Part shown: piece after piece, positions 33,830 to 46,288 of the stretch
Layout: the number at the start of each line of letters is the position of its first letter
Numbering within the stretch: position 1 is the first letter of the stretch
Assembly (NCBI GenBank): GCA_947492825.1
Contig: CANLNT010000001.1
Coordinates: forward strand, 930,001 to 994,000
Length of the DNA: 64,000 bases
Source: an uncultured Paracoccaceae bacterium
Lineage (GTDB): Bacteria > Pseudomonadota > Alphaproteobacteria > Rhodobacterales > Rhodobacteraceae
Reading direction: 5' to 3'
Position numbers and translations under genes: made by a program
The notes under the pieces: model-generated
The model's input: only the letters and a program-made list of their open reading frames with translations
Databases searched by the model: none
What the model was told of the DNA's origin: nothing

Positions 33830-33905
33830 GCCCCTATAGCTCAGCTGGTAGAGCAACTGATTTGTAATCAGTAGGTCCGCGGTTCGAGTCCGTGTGGGGG
33901 CACCA
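33830..33905 (+). tRNA. tRNA-Thr (anticodon TGT)
   Basis: 76-nt gene with encoded CCA. Acceptor stem GCCCCTA/TGGGGGC, D-arm GCTCAGCTGGTAGAGC, anticodon stem CTGAT/ATCAG with loop TTTGTAA giving anticodon TGT (reads ACA and related threonine codons), and T-arm GGTTCGAGTCC. Its 3' 47 bases are repeated at 41706-41752, so it is the integration site of the island that follows; the functional tRNA is the complete left copy. Confidence 0.96.
33859..33905 (+). repeat. attL: 47-bp direct repeat (3' end of tRNA-Thr)
   Basis: The last 47 bases of the tRNA gene, from within the anticodon arm through CCA, are identical to 41706-41752. The bases flanking the match differ on both sides, so this is the exact attachment core. 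Confidence 0.92.
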
Positions 33906-33964: not shown

Positions 33965-33988
33965 AAATCCGGAAGCTTATCGGAAGCC
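33965..33988. repeat. Left-arm 24-bp repeat with tandem CGGAAGC
   Basis: A 24-bp sequence (AAATCCGGAAGCTTAT followed by CGGAAGCC) lies 60 bp inside the left end and is repeated exactly at 41554-41577 inside the right end. It contains two CGGAAGC units spaced 11 bp, one helical turn, as expected of an integrase arm-type site. Confidence 0.8.
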
Positions 33989-34139: not shown

Positions 34140-34403
34140 ATGAACATTTGGCCTGACGGCTCCTCTATCAAAGGTCAGATTGTGTTTGTCCGAATTTGCT
34201 ACTTTCTAGGTATTCTCATATTTTTCGGGTCAGTACTGATGCTTGCAGTAAGTGTCGGCTTTGCCATCTGGGGGGAACCGGGCGCGTTTCAGTCCTTTTT
34301 TCCGGGCCGCAGTATGGGCAAATTGATCGACCAAAATTTGTATGGCATCTTGGTCGGATCAGCATTGGGCGCCATTGGCGAAATCGGTAGGAAACTGGAC
34401 TGA
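34140..34403 (+). CDS. Hypothetical small membrane protein (island)
   Basis: 87 aa, not recognised. One strong membrane helix (VRICYFLGILIFFGSVLMLA, residues ~17-36) is extended by further hydrophobic sequence (VSVGFAIWG), and a weaker second helix lies near residues 69-80 (YGILVGSALGAIG). Shine-Dalgarno signal before the ATG is weak and the region is AT-rich, so the gene call is tentative. First ORF inside the left end of the island. Confidence 0.45.
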   Translation: MNIWPDGSSIKGQIVFVRICYFLGILIFFGSVLMLAVSVGFAIWGEPGAFQSFFPGRSMGKLIDQNLYGILVGSALGAIGEIGRKLD

Positions 34404-34492: not shown

Positions 34493-35011
34493 ATGAGATC
34501 AGATAACCAATCTCCCGTTACTTTAGACCAGATGAAAGGGGCCGTAGGATCTTTGCTGTTCTTATGGTCTCAAATTGAGCGTGAGTTAGGTGCCTCGATC
34601 GACAAATTGGTGGACGGCAGAACGACTAAACGACCTCACGGCATCGCCCAAAATCTCGACCTTTGGCGCACCGAAATTCAAAATAGGACGAGCCGATCTG
34701 GTTTGGCAGATGAACTATGCATTCGATTGACTGACCATCTTCGTGAAGCTCTTGCAGTCCGAAATTTGGTTTGTCACGGGTTGATTGGATATTCCGCTAG
34801 ATTGACCCCTTTACATGAAGAAGCTTGCCTAACGGTTGAGTTGAATGGACTTGAACGCTCGCTAAGTTGGGCGGAACTGCAAGAGATGTTTGATTGGATG
34901 TCTCGAGCAAGTTGTTTGATTGGCGAACTGACGATTGCAGTGCTTGAAACCGATCAGTCTAGAAGCAGTGCATTGCTTCAAGGATTGAAAGACTTTCCTA
35001 GACGGGTCTAG
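34493..35011 (+). CDS. HEPN-like hypothetical protein (island)
   Basis: 172 aa, all-helical in appearance. Residues 90-95 read RNLVCH inside the phrase LAVRNLVCHGLIG, matching the R-x4-6-H active-site motif of HEPN-fold ribonucleases and the usual 'xxRNxxxHG' context. The N-terminal MKGAVGSLLFLWSQIERELG is typical of HEPN helix 1. No neighbouring antitoxin of the MNT type is present; the nearest gene is the convergent RloC-like gene. Could be an RNase toxin, a non-catalytic HEPN scaffold, or an unrelated helical protein. Confidence 0.6.
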   Translation: MRSDNQSPVTLDQMKGAVGSLLFLWSQIERELGASIDKLVDGRTTKRPHGIAQNLDLWRTEIQNRTSRSGLADELCIRLTDHLREALAVRNLVCHGLIGYSARLTPLHEEACLTVELNGLERSLSWAELQEMFDWMSRASCLIGELTIAVLETDQSRSSALLQGLKDFPRRV

Positions 35012-35133
35012 CGGCCCAGAGCCGACTTTCGTTTCAAGCACAGCGGATGACCACTCGCAGCCCATTGATGCACGCCGCTCTAGGCGAAGCGATCCACCAC
35101 ATCCAGCCTCGAATTACAGAGTAAGGCGGACTT

Positions 35134-37440
35134 TCAGTCGGCGCCCGGTTTTTTTATGATCCGCAGCATCGCATCGTAGTGTTTTTTGTCGCGCTCCCGA
35201 ATATATTTCATTGCGCCATTTGCTGCGCGGTGGCTCTCTTCGACAGTAAGCGCGGGAAGCGAATTCACAGCCTCAATGTCACCATGCGACTCAATTTGGC
35301 ATACTCGCTCAAGCTGGTTCATTTCAGCCTGATCTAACCCTTTGATCTTCCCGGAGTCGTCGAATAACGCTTCAGCGAAACTGGCTTTGTCCGGTGCAGC
35401 AAATGCTGTGAATATCTCTAGAAGCTTTCGGATCGCGTTGGGCAACATATACAGATAGTCGGTGCTCTGCTTGTCCGAAGCCTCGAACACGACGGAGAAA
35501 AGGTATTGGTATTCTGAGTCGTATTTCGCCAAGTGCGAGGGCATCTTAACCAGTGCTGATTCTCGACTGCCTTTTTTATCGCCGCGGCAATCCACGAACA
35601 GCAGCCCTTGAGGTACCGTATCCGCGAAGTTGACCCCTCGGAAGAAGGCTCGCTTCGCCATGTGCATGAGCTTGAGGTTATGGGTCAACAGGACGACCTG
35701 CGCGACACGTTTGGTATGCTTCTTTATCAGGCCAAACGCGTAGGTCTGGGCATTGCTGTCGAGGCTCGACACTGGGTCGTCGATTACAACAACGAGCCTT
35801 TTCTTGTCCCTACCTTCGGCCCCAAATTGAGTTAAGAAGAAGCAGAAGGTTAGCGCGGTTTTCTCACCCTCGCTGAGGTTCTGCGCGATGGAGCCGTCCG
35901 CGCGAACCAATTGGTACCCTTCGTCCTTGGCCTCCAAACGGATGGAGTTGTGACCGAGGTACTCGTGAAGCAGTTTGTTGAGCTCGATGGCCGCAATACC
36001 GTGTTTGCGAATTTCATTGCGCAACGTTTCAGCTTTCCGTCTCAGGCCTTTCGCCGTGCTTTCTGCTTTTTGGGCCTCTTCTTCCGCCTCCGCCGCTTTT
36101 CGTTTCAACTGACGGTAGGAAGCTTGCTCGGCGAAGAGAACATGGGCCTTGAGTGCATTGGCGGCGGCGTCTTTGAGTTGTCTAAACCGGTCATTGATGG
36201 AATTGTGCTCGCCGATAACAGCCAGCAAACGGTTCTTGGCATCAATAAACTCGGCTAACCCGTCACCGTCCAAGAGCTTGGTCACGTTGTCGGGAGCCGT
36301 TTGAATTGTCATAGGGTTCCGTTGACGTTCGCCAAGCGCTTCTTGCAGCTCCTTGATCGCCGTGCCAGTAGAAATGACCTCAGCCCGGAACCTTTTTTCG
36401 GCCTCGCCGAAGTGTTTGGCTAGAGTGGGTTGAACAGCTGACTGCGATGGAAATCCCTCAAGCCATCCTCTCAGCAGCGAGCGTGACCGCCCGCACCATG
36501 CAATGGCCGCTGTCACTGCGTTTGCTTGCTCTTGCCAGCTCTCGCTGAACAGGGCCGCCAAGGTCTTTCGGCGTTGGTCTGATATCTTATTTCCACAATG
36601 AAGGCATGACGCGAGCTGGTTTTCTTCATGGTAATGGTGGCCTTCAGCTACCCATGCCAACATGTTGGGGTGGGTGCTGAGGTCAGACGAAAGCTGCGCA
36701 GAGTAGTCCTGCTGAGCTAGGTCACATGCAGTTTTCAACTCGTCCAGAAATTCCTTGGGCAGTTTGAATGCTAGGTTAATTTTCGGGAGTGGGTCGGACT
36801 GACGAATGATCGCGCGGTACCCGTCAATATTTTCCTCCGCGAGGTTATCTTGTTCCGTGAACTCTTTTTCGGAGTACTCGCGATCGACATTGCCTCTGTT
36901 GAATTGCTGAGTGTAGCCAGTACCTCTCGCGTCGCGCACGCGTCCGCCTATCTCTGTGCCTTTTTCCTTGTAGCCCTTTTCTGCCGCTTCCTGCCTTGTC
37001 TTGGCTGCGCGAGTCTCGGCTGATGCAGCTTCGAGATCGGCTACTAGCTGGCGTAGCTCGTTCACCTTTTCGATGTTCTCTTCGTCGATATGGAAGATGG
37101 GCAGCGCCGAACCTTCGTCCCATTGGAAGTTGCGGGAAATAAAGTCTGAGTTGAAGACCAGGAGGTGGTTTCCAAGGGGATGCACCAAACTGGCATCGGT
37201 AGCTGTAGTTCCGTCGGAGAACTTGGCTTGAAATTTCGTGCGATCATCAAGCCCATTGGCCAGCGAATTTGCTTCGAGCGAAGAAAAGATGCGGGATAGG
37301 CTAGTCTTCCCTGATCCATTGAATCCATAAACAATTGTTTTTCGTGTGAAGTCAGCATCGGGGCTTTGCGGATTGTGGTCGCGCCAGATACCAACGCCCG
37401 TGATCTGAACAAGCTTCTCTACAAAAATGGTTTCTGGCAT
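35134..37440 (-). CDS. RloC/PrrC-like AAA_13 ATPase, putative anticodon nuclease
   Basis: 768 aa. An ABC-type ATPase head is split across the protein: Walker A YGFNGSGKTS (K45), signature NLSEGEKTA (521-529), Walker B VVVIDDPVSSLD (D554/D555), H-loop LLTHN (H587). Between lies a long coiled-coil with a CxxC, CLHCGN (C279, C282), like the zinc hook of RloC and Rad50. The C-terminal ~120 residues carry R671-x3-E675 (AIRKLLEIF) and H719 (IESHGD), matching the R-x3-E...H nuclease triad of PrrC and RloC. Those enzymes cleave host tRNA at the anticodon loop after phage or DNA-damage signals, controlled by ATP hydrolysis. No type I restriction genes accompany it, as for RloC. Confidence 0.85.
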   Translation of the reverse strand: MPETIFVEKLVQITGVGIWRDHNPQSPDADFTRKTIVYGFNGSGKTSLSRIFSSLEANSLANGLDDRTKFQAKFSDGTTATDASLVHPLGNHLLVFNSDFISRNFQWDEGSALPIFHIDEENIEKVNELRQLVADLEAASAETRAAKTRQEAAEKGYKEKGTEIGGRVRDARGTGYTQQFNRGNVDREYSEKEFTEQDNLAEENIDGYRAIIRQSDPLPKINLAFKLPKEFLDELKTACDLAQQDYSAQLSSDLSTHPNMLAWVAEGHHYHEENQLASCLHCGNKISDQRRKTLAALFSESWQEQANAVTAAIAWCGRSRSLLRGWLEGFPSQSAVQPTLAKHFGEAEKRFRAEVISTGTAIKELQEALGERQRNPMTIQTAPDNVTKLLDGDGLAEFIDAKNRLLAVIGEHNSINDRFRQLKDAAANALKAHVLFAEQASYRQLKRKAAEAEEEAQKAESTAKGLRRKAETLRNEIRKHGIAAIELNKLLHEYLGHNSIRLEAKDEGYQLVRADGSIAQNLSEGEKTALTFCFFLTQFGAEGRDKKRLVVVIDDPVSSLDSNAQTYAFGLIKKHTKRVAQVVLLTHNLKLMHMAKRAFFRGVNFADTVPQGLLFVDCRGDKKGSRESALVKMPSHLAKYDSEYQYLFSVVFEASDKQSTDYLYMLPNAIRKLLEIFTAFAAPDKASFAEALFDDSGKIKGLDQAEMNQLERVCQIESHGDIEAVNSLPALTVEESHRAANGAMKYIRERDKKHYDAMLRIIKKPGAD

Positions 37441-37578
37441 CTTTCAACCGCAATAGTTTCTTGTGATCATAAAACAGAAAGATGCTTGCACGTATTGCGA
37501 TGGGTTGCCAACACATCCATGTCAGCGAGCTGCGCATAGCTGCCATCCGTCAAAGATGCAGCGAATGACCGCTTCCCG

Positions 37579-37628: not shown

Positions 37629-39020
37629 CTACGAGGCAAGTTCACTATGGTGAGATCTGAACACATATCGGTCTTTCGCGTCCTGTAACTGCTTTGCAGC
37701 GCGAAGCGGATCTGCGCGGACCTGATCTTTCATGTCTTGCGCGATACGATCCAGCGCAGCGGGTAGGTCGTCGGCCTTGGATTGTCGGAGGGCCGCAAGT
37801 GTGATGCTGGACCCGGTGACTTGCCGCAAAAGCATGGCGATGTGTTCTTCTTGGTGCACCTTTTTCAGCGGGTTGGGGTCAACGCCGCTGCGCATTTCAA
37901 ATAGGTCGTCATTGATCTCCGACATCGCGATTTCCCAAAGCAAGTGGTTGGGCCAGCGGGCGCGGTTGGTGTCGTCGGGGGCGGGGGCGGTGTAGCGGAC
38001 GACTTCGCCGGTTTGACGGCAGAGATCGCCAAAACGGTCAAACAAGTCAGACCATGTTCGGATGTCCCATGTGTCTTTTAGAAGGTCTTTGCCTGCCCGC
38101 AGTTCGACACGCCAAACGCGGCTTTGGGCGAGGTCGTTGGGGTCCAGTTCCTTTATGTAGGGATACCTAGGGGCAAGGCCGTTCCTATGTAAGGTAACAT
38201 TGGCGGGTTTTGCATCATTCAACTTGCGTAACGTATCGTTCCAGATCGCCCACCATTGGGTCTTACCGCTGGCGACCACTTGTTCACGCTTGTCGTAGAT
38301 AATCACTTGTCGGTTCTTGATCTTGCCCACGGTCACCGATGTGACCCGGCCGGACTTGCCATGCACCGAAAGGTCTTCACCAGTGATGTAGTCCCGACGC
38401 CCCGTGTTGCTGTGCATCACGAAGTTTTCCGGGTTCAGCACAAAATCTGGTGCCAAAATGTCGGTGCAAAAATCAACGCGGCTGATGCTGATGTCGTCGG
38501 GACGATAACGTATGCCCAGACGTTCCGTGACGTGTTCCACATGCGCTTTCGCCGCGCCAAGCCCATGGAATGCCATGAAGTCCGAACCAAAGATAATCCG
38601 GATGCCCCAAGCGTCCTTTGCATTGGGCTTCTTGAAGGACCATTGCGCCCCATCAGGACCGCCGGAGAGCAAAAAACGATACCCGCCGCCACCATGAGGG
38701 CTAAGGTGGAATTGCAGCCCATTGTAGGTCATCAGAACGCTGCGACGTTCTTCCTCGGCGACTTCCTTTTCGGCATCTAAGACAGCCTGTAATGCTTCAG
38801 GGATGTTCGCCCGGATTGCCAACGTTAGATAGTCAAAGCCGCGATGCAATACGATCATGGGGCTTAGTGTATTTCCAGAGGGGGGTGCTACTACCACCCC
38901 CCTCGGCGGTCGGTCGTCATTCGCAGGTCGCGCGGCTTGCGGGTTTGGGGAGCCTCCGGCGGGGCAGCTTTTGTTTTGGGGCCGAATGGGTTTTTGTGGG
39001 CGGGCTTTAGTTGTTTTCAT
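37629..39020 (-). CDS. Rep_trans/RstA-type replication initiator (island)
   Basis: 463 aa. Landmarks of the replication initiation factor family (PF02486; RstA of CTX-type phages, plasmid Rep and MobT relatives): DYLTLAIR near residue 63, SRVDFCTD (180-187), IIYDKRE (241-247) and RVWRVELRAGK near residue 305. Such proteins nick one strand for rolling-circle replication or mobilisation. The first ~60 residues are proline-rich and contain a segment whose DNA (38949-38964) matches a chromosomal dispersed repeat. The start overlaps the end of the 73-aa gene by 14 bp. Confidence 0.85.
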   Translation of the reverse strand: MKTTKARPQKPIRPQNKSCPAGGSPNPQAARPANDDRPPRGVVVAPPSGNTLSPMIVLHRGFDYLTLAIRANIPEALQAVLDAEKEVAEEERRSVLMTYNGLQFHLSPHGGGGYRFLLSGGPDGAQWSFKKPNAKDAWGIRIIFGSDFMAFHGLGAAKAHVEHVTERLGIRYRPDDISISRVDFCTDILAPDFVLNPENFVMHSNTGRRDYITGEDLSVHGKSGRVTSVTVGKIKNRQVIIYDKREQVVASGKTQWWAIWNDTLRKLNDAKPANVTLHRNGLAPRYPYIKELDPNDLAQSRVWRVELRAGKDLLKDTWDIRTWSDLFDRFGDLCRQTGEVVRYTAPAPDDTNRARWPNHLLWEIAMSEINDDLFEMRSGVDPNPLKKVHQEEHIAMLLRQVTGSSITLAALRQSKADDLPAALDRIAQDMKDQVRADPLRAAKQLQDAKDRYVFRSHHSELAS

Positions 39021-39228
39021 TGGACTGCCTCGCGATCCAGTTTTCGGCGCGATCTGCGCACTTTGAGATGTTGAGTAGGTCGGCATGTGCGTAGCTCTCG
39101 GTATTCTTCCAGTTGCCATCGGCATCCTTGTAAGAACGTTTGAAATCAACGGAATAGAAGCCATCGTTCTTCCAGATTGTTGCCGTGATGAGTCCTATTC
39201 GGAACTTGAAGGTAGGTTGATTTGTCAT
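39007..39228 (-). CDS. Small island protein upstream of the initiator
   Basis: 73 aa. KFRIGLITATIWKN followed by FYSVDFKRSYKDADGNWKNTESY is the pattern of a small family common beside Rep or mobilisation genes in integrative elements; it looks like an OB-type strand-rich fold and may bind single-stranded DNA. Coding end overlaps the rep start by 14 bp, so the pair is co-expressed. Role is inferred from context. Confidence 0.75.
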   Translation of the reverse strand: MTNQPTFKFRIGLITATIWKNDGFYSVDFKRSYKDADGNWKNTESYAHADLLNISKCADRAENWIARQSNENN

Positions 39229-39365: not shown

Positions 39366-39581
39366 TCAGACGGTTTGTGAGGTGTTGCTCACGGTGCGGT
39401 CAGCAATCCACTTGTCCAGATCGGCGCGACGGTAGCGGATCGAGCGGGATGAGACCTTGACAAAGTCCGGCCCGCCGCCACGGTGCCGCCAGTTCTGTAA
39501 GGCGCGGACGGAGTAGCAGAGGATCGACGCGGCTTCGCGTTCGTCTACCAATGTGCCATTTTGAGGTTGTGTTGCGTGCAT
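39366..39581 (-). CDS. Excisionase/AlpA-like helix-turn-helix protein
   Basis: 71-aa MerR/AlpA-type DNA-binding protein: LVDEREAASILCYSVRALQNWRHRG followed by PDFVKVSSRSIRYRRADLDKWI (landmarks EREAASIL near 12 and RYRRADLDKW near 52). This winged-helix layout is that of excisionases and AlpA regulators, which steer the integrase toward excision and often repress or activate island genes. The ATG at 39581 is preferred; the longer ORF to 39650 lacks a good ribosome site. Confidence 0.85.
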   Translation of the reverse strand: MHATQPQNGTLVDEREAASILCYSVRALQNWRHRGGGPDFVKVSSRSIRYRRADLDKWIADRTVSNTSQTV

Positions 39582-39684
39582 TGTGTCACTCTCCGATGTT
39601 TGTGTCTGAGTGACAAATTCGGCGAAGAACGGCGGAGAAGATAATGGCAATAATCCGAGAGATTTTCTCTTTTAATGCCACCAT

Positions 39685-40347
39685 CTACTTTCGGACTTTG
39701 AGGACACGTCTCGCAGCATCGCCAATGGACCCACCGGCTGGCACATCTTTGCCATTGTGGGACCAAATCACATCATAAACAAAATCTAGGAATGGCCCCT
39801 TATAAGGGCGTTCAGGATCGAGGGAGTCGAAGTAATAACCCTTAGAAGGCTCATGCTCTGTAGTCTGAGCGAAAATCCTCGCGAGCCTTTGAATAACGAT
39901 CTCAAGTTCTGAGTTTTGTTTGGGTCGCCCACGTTTGCCGCTGTTTTCGCCTCGTGCTTGCGCGACTATTTCACTTAGTTCCGACAGTTCATCTAGAATG
40001 CGGTGTCGTTTTACGTCGCTCCAATCTAAGCCTTCATATTCTCCCATGTCGATGAGTGTCCGATCTCCAAAATTGGGTGGCTCAAAATCCATACTCGCCT
40101 CTGCAAGCTCAATTGTCAGCCAATCTGCCGGGTCAGACAATTGTTTAACAATCCTTTCGATGGCATTTTCAAGCGGATCGTATGCCGCTTTTCTCACATT
40201 TGCTGAAACCTTCGGTGGCCAACTTTGATTATGCGCATATCCCTCTAAAGCAGCTTCTATTGCTTGCTCAAATTCAATAGAAGCAGCGCCGCACTGACCA
40301 AGTGACAACCAGAAACGATCAAAATCATCCTTCTTAAGCGCTTGCAA
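39685..40347 (-). CDS. Hypothetical island protein
   Basis: 220 aa, not recognised. Mostly helical with several tryptophans and an interior basic patch (SGKRGRPKQNSELE). The first ~90 residues (LSLGQCGAASIEFEQAIEAALEGY) are helix-rich, followed by an acidic stretch (LIDMGEYEGLDWSD). It sits between the integrase and the excisionase-like gene, 25 bp downstream of the integrase stop, a common position for accessory or immunity genes of small islands. Confidence 0.6.
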   Translation of the reverse strand: MQALKKDDFDRFWLSLGQCGAASIEFEQAIEAALEGYAHNQSWPPKVSANVRKAAYDPLENAIERIVKQLSDPADWLTIELAEASMDFEPPNFGDRTLIDMGEYEGLDWSDVKRHRILDELSELSEIVAQARGENSGKRGRPKQNSELEIVIQRLARIFAQTTEHEPSKGYYFDSLDPERPYKGPFLDFVYDVIWSHNGKDVPAGGSIGDAARRVLKVRK

Positions 40348-40372: not shown

Positions 40373-41542
40373 TCAGAATGGTTTCTCTGATGTATTGCCC
40401 AGAGTATGTGCCAAACGGTTGGCGATCCTGCCAGCAGCTTTCTGCACCGCGTCGTCGGACAGATGTGCATAGCGCAACGTGGTGGACAGGTTCTTGTGAC
40501 CTAAAATCTCTTTCAGCATAAAGGGATCAATCCCGTTCATCACAGCAACCGATGCATAGGTGTGGCGCAAATCATGGACGCGAACGTCGTTTAGGCCAGC
40601 TTTGGCCCTGATCTTGCGCCAAGGTTTCTGCAGGTCGTTGTAGTGGCTAGAGCCGTGGTCGCCTAAGATCACGAACGGGTTTCCTTCGCGCCGGTCTAGC
40701 GTGTCCAGCAGGGCGCGGGCTTCACGGGGCAGGGGGATGCGACGTCGGCCTGTCTTACTGTCCGGCAGTTCCAAGTGAGTGCGGGTGACATATTCCCATT
40801 TCAGCTTTTGGATTTCGTTCAGGCGGCATCCCGTCAGCAGCAACAGGTAGAACGCGGCAAAGACGTAGCGACTGATTTCGCCGCGTCTCAGCATCTGGGC
40901 CAACACATTGCCAAGTCGTTCTTGTTCGTCCTCGTCCAAATAGCGCTTCTTTTCTTCTTCAGGATATTTCTTGATCCGGCGCGACGGGTTTGTGTTCATG
41001 GGGCGCAGGCCCCAATCCTCGGCCAAGTTCAACATCTTCGACAACATCATCACGCCGCGATTTGCTTGATAGGGGGTGTCCTTGAGTTTGATGTGAAACG
41101 TCTGAATGTCGAGGAAAGTGATTTCAGACACCTTGATCCCACCAAGAACCGGCACGACGACTTTGCGCAATAGGTTGCTGTAGTCGTATTGGGTGGTCGG
41201 CTTACAATGCAGTGCGACGTGATCCCTGAGAAACCTTTCGCCCAATTCGGCGACTGTGGGGCTGCGCAGACGGGCTTTGCGGTCAATTGAAGGGTCGGTG
41301 CCTCTGGCGACGTCGGCTTGCGTCAGCTTGGCCTCTTTGCGGGCCTCATCGGCGGTTACGACTCCGTGCATGCCAAGGTTCTTGCGGCGGGTCCGACCGT
41401 GCATCTTGTATTGCACGACATAGACCTTGCGACCGGATGGGTAGAGGCGCAGGCCAAAGCCGCTCAACTCATCGTCCCAAAGGATGCGCTCCTTGTCTTC
41501 GGGCGCTATGCTTTCGACGTATCGTTTTGTCAGTTTCGCCAT
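40373..41542 (-). CDS. int: Tyrosine integrase of the island
   Basis: 389-aa tyrosine recombinase of the P4 type. The N-terminal DUF4102 arm-binding domain covers residues 1-90 (LWDDELSGFGLRLYPSGRKVY), followed by the core-binding domain. Catalytic residues are all visible: R240 (LTGCRLNEI), K263 (SKTGRRRI), H323 and R326 (HDLRHTYAS), H349 (LGHKNL) and the nucleophile Y358 (TTLRYAH). It inserts into tRNA 3' ends. The gene starts just inside the right att site with a 24-bp arm repeat 12 bp before its ATG. Confidence 0.96.
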   Translation of the reverse strand: MAKLTKRYVESIAPEDKERILWDDELSGFGLRLYPSGRKVYVVQYKMHGRTRRKNLGMHGVVTADEARKEAKLTQADVARGTDPSIDRKARLRSPTVAELGERFLRDHVALHCKPTTQYDYSNLLRKVVVPVLGGIKVSEITFLDIQTFHIKLKDTPYQANRGVMMLSKMLNLAEDWGLRPMNTNPSRRIKKYPEEEKKRYLDEDEQERLGNVLAQMLRRGEISRYVFAAFYLLLLTGCRLNEIQKLKWEYVTRTHLELPDSKTGRRRIPLPREARALLDTLDRREGNPFVILGDHGSSHYNDLQKPWRKIRAKAGLNDVRVHDLRHTYASVAVMNGIDPFMLKEILGHKNLSTTLRYAHLSDDAVQKAAGRIANRLAHTLGNTSEKPF

Positions 41543-41553
41543 CGTTGCTCACC

Positions 41554-41577
41554 AAATCCGGAAGCTTATCGGAAGCC
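41554..41577. repeat. Right-arm 24-bp repeat upstream of int
   Basis: Exact copy of 33965-33988, same orientation, containing tandem CGGAAGC units 11 bp apart. It lies 12 bp upstream of the integrase ATG, so integrase binding could also repress int transcription. The 382-bp stretch 41543-41924 otherwise holds the dyad at 41593, the att copy and a terminator-like hairpin, with no gene. Confidence 0.8.
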
Positions 41578-41705: not shown

Positions 41706-41752
41706 GATTTGTAATCAGTAGGTCCGCGGTTCGAGTCCGTGTGGGGGCACCA
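41706..41752 (+). repeat. attR: 47-bp direct repeat of tRNA-Thr 3' end
   Basis: Identical to 33859-33905. It lacks the acceptor 5' strand and D-arm and is not a functional tRNA; it marks the right border of the island. Chromosomal sequence resumes at 41753. Confidence 0.92.
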
Positions 41753-41924: not shown

Positions 41925-44900
41925 TCAGGCAACCGCCAAGGGATCTGGCGTAAACAATGTCAGTCCGACCAAAAGCGGATCGTGGTCAGATGCTGCAAAC
42001 ACATCGTCACCATTGTAGAACGACGGATCATTGAACTGGCTGTTGTAGTTCAAAAGATCAGGTTCCTGTGCATTGATGTGCCATTCGGCGACGCCGGTAA
42101 TCTGATCGGTAAGTGAGTCAGACGACAAGGCATGATCCAGCGCGCCTTGCTGCCCATCAAAGATAAAGCTGAAGGCATCTTCGGCGCCCACGAAGTCTTC
42201 CAGCAGGTTGTTGTAACCTGCGGCTTCGATCGCTTGAACCGGGTCCTCCTGCAGATAGGCATTCAGGTCACCGATGATCAGAACGTCAGGGTCCGTTGTG
42301 CCAGTCGGCCCGGTTTCAAGCCATGCTGTCAGTTGCTCTGCCGCTGCCGTGCGCACCGCATTGAAGTTGCCCTGACCATCGCCCTGATCGGCGTCATCGC
42401 CGCTGCCGCTCCCACCTTTGGACTTGAAGTGATTGACGGCGACGGTGACCTCTTCTCCGTTTTCGTCGACGAAGGTAGCGGCCACAGCCGGGCGGTTGCG
42501 TTGTTGGCCGCCATCGTCAAATACCAAGAAATCAGAACCCGTCACGTCAACACTGTCGAGCTTGTAGATGAACCCTGTCGTGATCGCGTCAGTGCCGAGC
42601 ATCCCGCCAACACCGCCGGTAGGATCCACGTAGCCATAGACCTCGCTTCCCAATTCGCTATTCAGCGCCGCGACCAGGGTGGCAATGGCGCTGTCATCGT
42701 CAAAGCCGTTGTTTTCGATTTCTTGCAGGCCAACGATATCGCCGTCCAATGCAATCAATGCGTTCACCAGCTTTTCGGTCTGGCGGGCAAGATCTTCGGG
42801 TGTGGCTGCGCCGCGTGGATCATAGCCGTAGAGGGCTACTTTCTCTGCGGTCGAAAGGGCCGGGTCATCCAGCGAGGTGAAGTAGTTCAGCGCGTTGAAG
42901 CTGACCACTTTCAAGTCACCACCGACATCGGGCGGTGTTTCTTCGCGCGCACCTTCGTTGGTGATGGGGTCAATTGACAGCGTCTCTGTCGGGATGATCT
43001 TGTATTCCCCAAAGTTGAAGGACAGCACACCGTTGACCGGTGCATCCAGTTCGGCCCCAAGCCGCAGGGTGGGGCCGTCAGCTGTAAAGACATCACCCGC
43101 GCTCAGAATCCCATCACCATTGTCGCCTGCCGACGTGTTCGCGATATAGGTAAATGAATCAGGGTTTTGTCCGCCTGCGCCATCGTCAATGGTTATCCGG
43201 TTCGCCGCATTTTGTTCCTGCAATGCGGTGATTTCGGTCAATTGGGTCTGGGCATCATAAATCTGGGTTGGCTGGATCTGTGCGCCTTCGCTTATGACAA
43301 TTTCGCCAAAGCGATCAAAGTTGAACGTTTCTATGATTGTCAACGGCGCGCCGTCCGAAGCAAGGCTGACTTGCATACCCTCAAAACTTTCAAGGCTGCT
43401 GATGCTGTCCGGCAGGGTCAATGTCGCGGCGGTCGGCAAAGTGGCGGTGCCGATGTTGGACACGGTGGCATTGGTCAATTGCGTGAAGTCAAAGAATTCA
43501 TCAACCGTGCCCGTGACATAGACAACATCGGTCACGGTTACACCCGGTGTGTCGCCGGTGAAGACAAAGATCCCTTCGGACGTCGCAGCGTCAGCATCGG
43601 CGTCTGCGTCTTCCTCTTGCAAATAGAACCCATTGGACATCACGGCGGTCACAACCGCCTCGACGTTCACAACTTGCCCGTCAAGTGCGGAGGCATCGCC
43701 GCTGCCCTGCACGGTCGAGATCAACGTTGTGCCGGTTGGCGGCGGCGGTGGGGGCGGTGGGCCGTCATCGTTTGCCGCATCACGCGTGCTGGCGGCAGGC
43801 CCTTGCCAGTTGCCATCGCTATCCTTTTGCAGGCTGTCGCCGATTGCGGTGCTGCTGGTCTCAGATACACCGATGTCGAGCGCTGTCATACCAGCCGCAG
43901 GGCCGTCAGTTGCGGTCAGGTCGCCTTCGTAGGCAATGAATTCCGCAACGGTCCCATCTGGCGCGACAAGTGCGATGCCATCAGGCGCACCGTTTTGAAT
44001 GCCCGGAACATCAACAGAGGCATAGCCGTCGGCGTTCAACGTGCCGGTCAGGGCCACGGTATTGTAGACCGCCCCGCCATTCCCGTTGTAAAGTGCGATG
44101 GTCCAGCCAGTCAGATCACCACCCGGAGTGCCAGACACCTCGACGAATTCGCCAACGTCGCCGCCAGCGTTGTCATAGTGGAATTCTGACAGGATGACGT
44201 CATCGGCCGGGGGTGTTACCGGCTCGGTATTGGCGTCACCCTTGGTGCTGGCTTTTGGGCCGTCCCATGTGCCGTCTTCGAGACGCTGCAAGCTGTCACC
44301 GATGGCGGTGCTGCCGGATTCAGAAACGCCAATGTCGGTTGAGGTCATGCCATCGGCAGGGCCACCAACGGCATCAAACGTGCCTTCGTAGGACAGAAAT
44401 TCGACAACCTCGCCTTGGTCATTCACCAGTGCGATCCCGTCCGGGCCACCGTTCTGAATCCCATTGGTGGGCAGGTCGGTGACGTCAAAACCGATGCCGT
44501 TCGCGGTGTCCGCCAAGACACCATCCAGCGCGATGGTGTTATAAGGCGTGCCGTTGGAGCCATTGTAGAGCACCAGCGACCAACCGCTTAGGTCTGTGCC
44601 CGCGTCACCGGCGACTTCGATAAATTCACCGACATCGCCACCGGCGTTGTCATAGTGAAATTCGTTGATGAAGACGTTGGGCGGCACATCACCCAACGTC
44701 TGGCCGTCATTGGTGGCACCAGATGTGTTGGTATCCGTGACCGTCCAGGTGAATTCATCCTCGATCCCGCTGCGCTGGATCGACCCACCAATCGGTTGGC
44801 CGCTGGTTTCAGCCACGCCCACATCCTGAGAGGTCAGGCCAGTGGCTGGCCCGTCAGCGGCCGTCATGGCCCCTTCGTAGGAGATGAATTCGACCACTGC

Positions 44901-46169
44901 ACCTGTATCATCAACCAGTGCGATGCCATCGGGCGCGCCGTTTTGCAGGCCGTTGCTGGGTAGGTTGGTGACATTGAACCCAAAACCGCCAGCGGTGTCG
45001 TCTAGTGCATCAGCAAGCGCAATGGTGTTATAGGCCGTGCCGTTTGACCCGTTATAAAGCACAAGGCTCCACCCATTGAGGTTGACGCCTGCGGTTCCTG
45101 CCACTTCGATAAATTCACCGACATCGCCCCCGGCGTTGTCATAATGGAATTCGTTGATCCAGACCTTTGGGGCAGGGCCCTCGTCCACGTCAGTGACGGT
45201 GACGGCGATATCGGCGCTGTCGGACAATGTGCCATCGGACGCGGTCACTGTGACATCATAGACGTTGTTACCATCCGCGTCTGCCGGGGCTTCAAAATCC
45301 GTGGCGTCCTTGAAGGTCAGCACACCGTTTGCGTCGATATCAAATAGCACCGCATCATTCCCTGACAGGGAGTAGGTGATCGTATCTCCATCGACATCAA
45401 AGGCACTGGCTGCTGCCACAGCGGTCGTATTTTCTGCGACTTCGGCAGTGTCGGCCAGCGTTAGTTCGGGCGCGTCATTCTCTCCAGTGATTGTGATAGT
45501 AACAGTTGCGGTGTCAGTGGCGCCGTTGCCGTCACTCACAGTGTAGGTCAGCGTGGTCTGCGCCGTCTCACCTTCTTTGAGCGCGTCAAATGCCCCGTCG
45601 GTCGTATAGCTGATCGTGCCGTCATCGTTCAGCGTTGCCGATCCGGTCAGCCCGGTCGTATCAATGTCGATGATGGTCAGCGCGTCCCCGTCAAAGTCAA
45701 AGTCATTGCCGGTCAGGCCGGAAATCGTGGCGCCAGTGGCGTCTGCATCTGCTGCGTCATCGCGGGCGAGAACGGCGTTGTTCCGGCCATCCAGAAAGGC
45801 CGTGTAATCATCACTTGTAAAATAGAGTGCCTCGACACTGTTCAGGCGGTCCGTGTCACCACCTGCGTCTGTGACCTTTGCCTTGATCGGCCCGCGTCCG
45901 TTGGCGCGGACACTGTGAACGGTGTAGTCGTCCACGCCACCTTCGAAGACGGCGGTGTCAAAACCGAAGCCACCAAAAAGCTTGTCAGCCCCGGCACCCC
46001 CGATCAGTGTGTCATCGCCAAAGCCGCCAAACAAAAGGTCGCGACCCGCGCCACCGTCGAGTGTGTCGTTGCCCCATAGCCCGAACAACAAATCCTTACG
46101 GGCATCGCCCACAAGCGTATCAGGCCCAAATCCACCAAACTGAATACCAATTTTGAAGCGTCCAAACAT
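41925..46169 (-). CDS. Giant RTX/lamin-tail ExeM-NucH-type extracellular nuclease
   Basis: About 1414 aa. Order of domains: glycine-rich calcium-binding repeats (GGAGRDLLFGG, GGAGADKLFGG; residues ~15-75), VCBS and cadherin-like modules (~120-330), three lamin-tail domains each opening with NEFHYDNAGGDVGEF or a close variant (~345-800), a proline run, an OB-like ExeM region (~830-1010), and a C-terminal endonuclease/exonuclease/phosphatase domain (KVVSFNALNYF, VGLQEIENN, VNHFKSK, IIGDLNAY, SDHDPLLVG). It has no Sec signal peptide; RTX repeats suggest type I secretion. Probably degrades extracellular DNA for phosphate or biofilm turnover. Start at 46169 is set by GGGGGA seven bases upstream. 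Confidence 0.9.
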   Translation of the reverse strand: MFGRFKIGIQFGGFGPDTLVGDARKDLLFGLWGNDTLDGGAGRDLLFGGFGDDTLIGGAGADKLFGGFGFDTAVFEGGVDDYTVHSVRANGRGPIKAKVTDAGGDTDRLNSVEALYFTSDDYTAFLDGRNNAVLARDDAADADATGATISGLTGNDFDFDGDALTIIDIDTTGLTGSATLNDDGTISYTTDGAFDALKEGETAQTTLTYTVSDGNGATDTATVTITITGENDAPELTLADTAEVAENTTAVAAASAFDVDGDTITYSLSGNDAVLFDIDANGVLTFKDATDFEAPADADGNNVYDVTVTASDGTLSDSADIAVTVTDVDEGPAPKVWINEFHYDNAGGDVGEFIEVAGTAGVNLNGWSLVLYNGSNGTAYNTIALADALDDTAGGFGFNVTNLPSNGLQNGAPDGIALVDDTGAVVEFISYEGAMTAADGPATGLTSQDVGVAETSGQPIGGSIQRSGIEDEFTWTVTDTNTSGATNDGQTLGDVPPNVFINEFHYDNAGGDVGEFIEVAGDAGTDLSGWSLVLYNGSNGTPYNTIALDGVLADTANGIGFDVTDLPTNGIQNGGPDGIALVNDQGEVVEFLSYEGTFDAVGGPADGMTSTDIGVSESGSTAIGDSLQRLEDGTWDGPKASTKGDANTEPVTPPADDVILSEFHYDNAGGDVGEFVEVSGTPGGDLTGWTIALYNGNGGAVYNTVALTGTLNADGYASVDVPGIQNGAPDGIALVAPDGTVAEFIAYEGDLTATDGPAAGMTALDIGVSETSSTAIGDSLQKDSDGNWQGPAASTRDAANDDGPPPPPPPPTGTTLISTVQGSGDASALDGQVVNVEAVVTAVMSNGFYLQEEDADADADAATSEGIFVFTGDTPGVTVTDVVYVTGTVDEFFDFTQLTNATVSNIGTATLPTAATLTLPDSISSLESFEGMQVSLASDGAPLTIIETFNFDRFGEIVISEGAQIQPTQIYDAQTQLTEITALQEQNAANRITIDDGAGGQNPDSFTYIANTSAGDNGDGILSAGDVFTADGPTLRLGAELDAPVNGVLSFNFGEYKIIPTETLSIDPITNEGAREETPPDVGGDLKVVSFNALNYFTSLDDPALSTAEKVALYGYDPRGAATPEDLARQTEKLVNALIALDGDIVGLQEIENNGFDDDSAIATLVAALNSELGSEVYGYVDPTGGVGGMLGTDAITTGFIYKLDSVDVTGSDFLVFDDGGQQRNRPAVAATFVDENGEEVTVAVNHFKSKGGSGSGDDADQGDGQGNFNAVRTAAAEQLTAWLETGPTGTTDPDVLIIGDLNAYLQEDPVQAIEAAGYNNLLEDFVGAEDAFSFIFDGQQGALDHALSSDSLTDQITGVAEWHINAQEPDLLNYNSQFNDPSFYNGDDVFAASDHDPLLVGLTLFTPDPLAVA
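44150..45165. repeat. Three diverged DNA repeats encoding lamin-tail domains
   Basis: Segments beginning near 45116, 44629 and 44153 repeat almost the same bases (a shared CGACATCGCC...CCGGCGTTGTCATAGTG core), encoding the opening of each lamin-tail domain. Spacing is ~480 bp, indicating tandem internal duplication. Confidence 0.8.
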
Positions 46170-46288
46170 CCGATAGTCCCCCATAAATAATGTCACTGAT
46201 GGTGGCGATTTGACGTCATTTTGCAAAGGTTAGATGACAACCACAGCGTGTTCCGTGGCGGAACCTTGCCGATCTGCCTGACTTTTGT

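Follow-up and report, generated by a model that had tools for sequence, protein, structure and literature searches.

RloC proteins were defined by Davidov and Kaufmann (PMC2610378) as polypeptides of 658-897 aa in which an ABC ATPase is split by a coiled coil bearing a CxxC zinc hook. Their C-terminus carries the triad Arg-X3-Glu-X36-52-His, often with Ser before the His, and each of the three residues (R692, E696, H737) is essential in the Geobacillus kaustophilus enzyme (PMC2610378). The latter (GkaRloC) and its Acinetobacter baylyi counterpart (AbaRloC) are only 33% identical, yet both cleave tRNA-Glu (PMC3874168). PrrC likewise joins an ABC ATPase to a C-terminal R-x3-E...H active site, but at 341-416 aa it is the shorter protein, it lacks the zinc hook, and its gene is linked to a type Ic hsd locus (PMC2610378, PMC3874168). 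RloC has already been listed in Rhodobacterales bacterium HTCC2150, and in possible transposons and prophages (PMC2610378, PMC3710099). Exchangeable defence genes that share a single slot on a small integrated element are also known, from P4-like satellites and from P2-like prophages that have anti-phage hotspots; the P4 hotspots belong to helper-dependent satellites of the tailed phages of E. coli (PMC9122126).

The window analysed here, 64,000 nucleotides from an uncultured Paracoccaceae bacterium, encodes on its minus strand an RloC-type protein of 768 aa with an ATG start (35134-37440), recognised from its ORF, profile matches and motifs; the plus strand over the same interval is full of stops. 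Its Walker A motif, GFNGSGKT, occupies residues 39-46 and includes K45 (37303..37326, minus strand), while the ABC signature LSEGEK (522-527) through Walker B VVVIDDP (550-556) is encoded at 35773..35877 on the same strand. In the middle of the coiled-coil insert lies the zinc hook C279-L-H-C282 (36595..36606, minus), assigned from the conservation of the cysteines and from a Rad50 hook match. The codons of R671-x3-E675 (35416..35430, minus), conserved among homologues, and of H719 (35284..35286, minus), invariant in 19 of 19 sequences, complete a C-terminal arrangement of R671-x3-E675-x43-S718-H719. An earlier reading, made from the sequence alone, had placed the split ATPase motifs (K45, signature and Walker B), the CxxC at 279-282 and the residues R671, E675 and H719 exactly where they are found, and had proposed an HMM search as a check. 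The top profiles in that search are AAA_13 of Pfam (386 bits, E 4e-115, residues 29-735) and PDC-S06, the best PADLOC model at 448 bits and itself only a candidate class; the PADLOC model for PrrC also matches, at 1.5e-11. Against solved structures the RloC profile leads to Rad50, AriA and SMC heads, and across the zinc-hook region it matches the Rad50 hook chain 6zff (E 0.006); phmmer with the single RloC sequence against solved structures returned nothing significant.

Homologues were drawn from bacterial genomes, one contig (Pseudooceanicola sp. HF7), plasmids and one phage, and 28 full-length sequences, 17-84% identical to the window protein but mostly 17-37%, were aligned. Columns that are invariant or at least 90% conserved include the ATPase motifs, W263/G267, C279 and C282; R671 is invariant, and E643, N668, E675, S718 and H719 are conserved in at least 90%. 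Outside the ATPase, conserved residues are almost limited to the hook cysteines, R671, E675, S718 and H719, and in the C-terminal domain only E643, N668, R671, E675, S718 and H719 are near-invariant. The two hook cysteines are present in every one of 31 sequences. When the C-terminal 165 residues of 19 sequences (21-95% identity to the window) are compared, only R671, S718 and H719 are invariant; position 712, seven residues before H719, is basic in 18 of the 19 and resembles the HEPN Rx4-6H motif. That the listed residues are present by chance is ruled out by the AAA_13 score together with this conservation. The nuclease domain encoded at L025 9813-10307 shares 95% identity with the C-terminal domain of the window protein, against 84% for the proteins as wholes, and by this comparison the nuclease half appears to be the more constrained part.

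The AlphaFold2 model of the full protein (mean pLDDT 82.6) shows long helices at residues 120-172, 300-374 and 393-477, and a Rad50/SMC-like ATPase head (5da9, Z 17.9). Since Foldseek and VIA-align searches with the full model covered the ATPase only, the C-terminal domain was folded alone (pLDDT 81.8); AlphaFold2 and VIA-align delimit a HEPN-like domain at residues 644-763 (35152..35511, minus). Foldseek with this domain alone found no significant match. In VIA-align the best 24 rows have Z values of 4.5-6.5, low in absolute terms, and are HEPN proteins (Csm6, HepT toxins, AbiV, Las1, sacsin) or the HEPN-like C-domains of nucleotidyltransferases, with the exception of a few structural-genomics entries that name no family in the title; clearly different helical bundles rank lower, at Z 4.3 or less. 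The sequence-only reading would have been refuted by top profile matches to an unrelated SMC-like family without a HEPN domain; the top profiles are AAA_13 and PDC-S06, with PrrC at 1.5e-11. It would also have been refuted by a model with R671, E675 and H719 far apart; at the level of helices, though not of interatomic distances, the model has R671 and E675 on one helix (666-681) and H719 directly after helix 704-715 of the same bundle.

Compared by published definition, the window protein resembles the RloC of G. kaustophilus and A. baylyi (PMC2610378, PMC3874168) in size (768 aa, within 658-897), in having a coiled coil with a central CxxC hook inserted in its ABC ATPase, and in its triad, where x43 falls within x(36-52) and Ser precedes His. 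The C-terminus has the HEPN fold according to the domain model, Foldseek alone not being significant. RloC genes usually have no linked R-M locus, and here PADLOC R-M models matched none of the scanned island proteins and there are no hsd genes on the island. The window gene differs from the two characterised ones in belonging to a different bacterial group and in lying on a defined tRNA-integrated element. Size, hook, R-x3-E-x43-SH triad, C-terminal fold and the lack of linked R-M all uphold the earlier assignment to the RloC type and not to PrrC, an identity that we reject on the length of 768 aa, the presence of the hook and the lack of hsd genes on the island. Very probably the gene codes for an anticodon nuclease of the RloC type, carried as cargo by a 7.85-kb element that is integrated at tRNA-Thr and belongs to an exchangeable-cargo family. 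The protein by itself is one more RloC, a member of a known family.

By analogy with characterised RloC, the window protein would be expected to cleave tRNA anticodons, to hydrolyse ATP in a DNA-dependent manner and to arrest translation, and it may act in phage defence by abortive infection. The Rad50-like ABC ATPase with its zinc-hook coiled coil would sense DNA ends or breaks; ATP hydrolysis would release the C-terminal HEPN RNase (R671, E675, H719), which would cut tRNA anticodon loops, so that translation stops in phage attack or DNA damage. Such a nuclease would require no restriction partner. HEPN enzymes cut RNAs of many kinds (PMC3710099), and tRNA cleavage is here presumed for a protein that is mostly 17-37% identical to other members of the family; a HEPN activity other than anticodon cleavage is nevertheless improbable, as the protein retains the triad spacing of RloC together with the Ser-His pair and a zinc hook, and as GkaRloC and AbaRloC still share their tRNA-Glu target at 33% identity (PMC3874168). 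Rad50/SbcC proteins have the ATPase head fold and the zinc-hook coiled coil in common with the window protein, but they lack a C-terminal nuclease domain and have Mre11/SbcD as partners. Although Rad50 is the best match of the ATPase head, a DNA-repair or chromosome protein of this type with a non-catalytic C-terminus is so improbable that we reject it: there is an extra conserved C-terminal domain, HEPN-like in the model, with R671, S718 and H719 invariant though outside the ATPase, no SbcD/Mre11 partner gene was found beside the gene, the gene sits on a mobile element, and its distribution is sporadic.

RloC matches at E 1e-20 occur in 3 of 394 other genomes of the family, in 6 of 384 genomes of the class and in 10 of 397 genomes of the phylum; a scan of viral contigs with the RloC protein found no relatives. 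The nearest relative of the window gene, 84% identical, is that of Pseudooceanicola sp. HF7, whose neighbours look like housekeeping genes. DNA similarity to HF7 is confined to window positions 35089-37528 plus a short upstream stretch. Because it is limited to the gene and its upstream part, we regard rloC as a stand-alone unit that includes its upstream region, and to judge from this comparison the gene appears to move by itself, apart from the carrier.

The carrier in the window is a 7.85-kb element between 47-bp repeats of tRNA-Thr. Its integration target is the tRNA-Thr(TGT) gene found by ARAGORN at 33830..33905 (plus strand); the first att core copy (33859..33905, plus) is the 3' half of this gene, and the second is its exact direct repeat at 41706..41752 (plus). 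Inside these, a 24-bp arm-type repeat, AAATCCGGAAGCTTATCGGAAGCC, occurs near the left end (33965..33988, plus) and recurs exactly near the right end (41554..41577, plus). The empty site is present in a genome of the same species (G147), where the 47 bp is present in a single copy at which the two flanks meet, and in which no RloC match was found. The integrase, duplicated tRNA 3' end and empty site in another genome that mark an integrative element are therefore all present, and the tRNA-Thr-integrated island claimed from the sequence alone is confirmed by the exact repeats and the same-species empty site. An ExeM/NucH-type extracellular nuclease of 1433 aa with VCBS-like repeats (41925-46226, minus) is encoded just beyond the right end of the island.

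Read from that end, the minus strand of the island encodes a tyrosine integrase (40373..41542; Phage_integrase 5e-21), a 220-aa protein at a variable position between integrase and HTH genes (39685..40347), an HTH_17 excisionase-like protein (39366..39650; Pfam, and PHROG excisionase at 8e-10), a 73-aa chassis protein conserved across islands (39007..39228) and a Rep_trans-like replication initiator, 409 aa from a conserved Met (37629..38858). The mechanical ORF of this Rep is 511 aa long and begins at 39164, the conserved part starting at Met 103. The stretch upstream of the Rep start, 38859-39164, aligns with relatives, contains stops in many of them and partly overlaps the 73-aa gene; this reading frame probably does not code for Rep. 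The initiator noted in the sequence-only reading is real, with its start probably at 38858 and not at 39164. The alignment of the Rep family shows conserved R-x-D-x3-D and YDK motifs, and PF02486 (Rep_trans) matches 5 of 23 aligned relatives, at best with 3e-5, the window protein itself being unmatched. On the plus strand of the cargo side are an 87-aa probable small membrane protein of no family (34140..34403) and, convergent with rloC, a 172-aa protein with the motif VRNLVCHG (34493..35011). Such an R-N-x3-H motif is typical of HEPN RNases. The 172-aa protein matched no family in profile searches; a relative on a Sphingobium plasmid, 30% identical, retains VRNGLCHG, and the protein is possibly a second HEPN-like protein on the island.

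Rep relatives were found in 26 of 345 other genomes of the family, and 20 Rep-bearing regions were compared, together with plasmid loci. The recurring gene order of the chassis is integrase, a variable gene, HTH, the 73-aa protein and Rep, followed by the cargo and the tRNA. Eighteen islands, including that of the window, are bounded by exact tRNA 3'-end repeats of 37-67 bp and span 5.9-9.9 kb (mean 7.7). There are five targets, tRNA-Thr, -Lys, -Met, -Arg and -Asn, and the target largely tracks the integrase tree (5 label changes against 9.4 when shuffled). The islands share arm sites with the hexanucleotide GGAAGC, whose density in the terminal 250 bp of 17 islands is 8.0 per kb, 13-fold the 0.61 per kb of their interior. 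Two islands (L088, L092) are without an intact integrase, and locus L084 (1817-16079) holds a tandem pair at one tRNA-Thr, with PARIS-like (AriA/AriB) and type I R-M cargo. A chassis island with SIR2-HerA cargo also lies near the end of a contig catalogued as viral (L102, IMGVR_UViG_2788500404_000001). No description of this island family was found in the open-access literature on Rhodobacterales. The setting is less novel than the sequence-only reading supposed, RloC having already been listed in a Rhodobacterales bacterium and in possible transposons and prophages. Newer than the protein is the recurrent carrier with exchangeable defence cargo, of which we found no description.

The cargo slot lies between rep and the tRNA, and its contents are exchangeable and, judged by the genes found in it, mostly anti-phage. 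PADLOC recognises type IIG R-M (L082, L088, L089), type I methylase and specificity genes (L084), AriA/AriB-like genes (first island of L084), Dsr1 (L087), dCTPase (L090), type III R-M (L092), type I R-M genes with a PtuA-like ATPase (L094), AbiU/AIPR (L098), an NsnB-like gene (L049), beta protein (L086), Gabija (L050), TIR with PDC-M50A (L085) and, on the IMG/VR contig L102, SIR2-HerA. Recognised or candidate defence genes are present in 13 of the 18 att-bounded islands, from which it follows that RloC is one of several interchangeable loads of this carrier. PADLOC recognised no defence gene in the other five (L091, L097, L099, L100, L101). L091 carries a Stealth/glycosyltransferase gene; the remaining four each have a single large cargo gene with no or a weak PADLOC match, encoding 749 aa in L099 (5814-8063), an MBL fold of 479 aa in L100 (9879-11318), a DUF4238 protein of 846 aa in L101 (5651-8191) and 543 aa in L097 (9555-11186). 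By their place in the defence slot these four proteins are candidate new defence systems. At about 1e-20 or better, PADLOC models match 16 of 25 cargo ORFs versus 1 of 52 flanking proteins; the Fisher P of 2e-9 is a guide only, the ORFs having been picked by position from non-independent genomes, and certain of the ATPase models in PADLOC are unspecific. Direct evidence of exchange comes from L049 and L097, which share one site and a near-identical chassis but have unlike cargo: their DNA is 95.7% identical over att and integrase and 89% between the start of the HTH region and the stop codon of Rep, has no identity in the cargo, and is alike again from the tRNA att.

Any transfer or replication of the element is presumptive. 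Relaxases of the Rep_trans superfamily serve ICEs and IMEs in Firmicutes (PMC6499999, PMC7563843), and the Rep family has Rep_trans homology. The islands, small and with integrase and excisionase but without transfer genes of their own, could be integrative mobilizable elements, with the Rep_trans-like protein serving as a MobT-like relaxase and transfer being supplied by a resident conjugative element. The Firmicutes IMEs (PMC7563843) are alike in combining an integrase with a Rep_trans-superfamily protein in a few kb without a transfer apparatus; the islands differ in being alphaproteobacterial, in sitting at tRNA genes and in carrying mostly defence cargo, and the relaxase role would be putative. 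Rep_trans mobilizable elements have been described mostly in Firmicutes, however, and the nearest non-island relatives of the Rep are located in PM2-like viruses and plasmids, so that we hold this reading only tentatively.

Among viral contigs the Rep alignment found seven relatives; a scan of the same contigs with the window Rep alone found none. L051 is a Thalassospira plasmid with a provirus-like element annotated with a major capsid protein P2, and L103 a metagenomic contig with relatives of a P2-like capsid protein and of the packaging ATPase; both have an island-related Rep, and the capsid proteins of both match PM2 P2 (2vvf). The genome of PM2 is about 10 kb, and the islands, at 5.9-9.9 kb, fall below that size. 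Jorvik-like phages, moreover, are common in Alphaproteobacteria (PMC10589892). The islands might then be capsid-packaged satellites of PM2-like (corticovirus-type) tailless phages, with a cargo that fends off other phages. We find this doubtful: the L051 Rep is 29% identical to that of the window, the two viral Reps lie on a branch of their own beyond the main groups of the islands, no packaging or helper-interference genes were recognised on the island, the Rep family has no match among 50,697 phage records, and the cultured Jorvik phage has a different replicase. The IMG/VR contigs L103-L108 have no convincing terminal repeats, and neither excision nor a free circular form was seen. The islands stand apart from the P4 hotspots (PMC9122126) in their chassis, which includes a Rep_trans-like initiator, and in having no known helper. 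Under a further proposal, tRNA-integrated elements of 6-10 kb, forming a family not yet described, would spread among marine-type alphaproteobacteria in PM2-like tailless-phage capsids, each delivering one exchangeable anti-phage system (here RloC) to its host; this is rather unlikely.

Whichever way it travels, the exchangeable-cargo carrier matters more than the RloC protein alone. Restriction, TIR, SIR2, PARIS-like, abortive-infection and RloC systems all occupy the defined slot of a single conserved chassis, which makes the swapping and movement of single defence systems testable in an abundant aquatic lineage.
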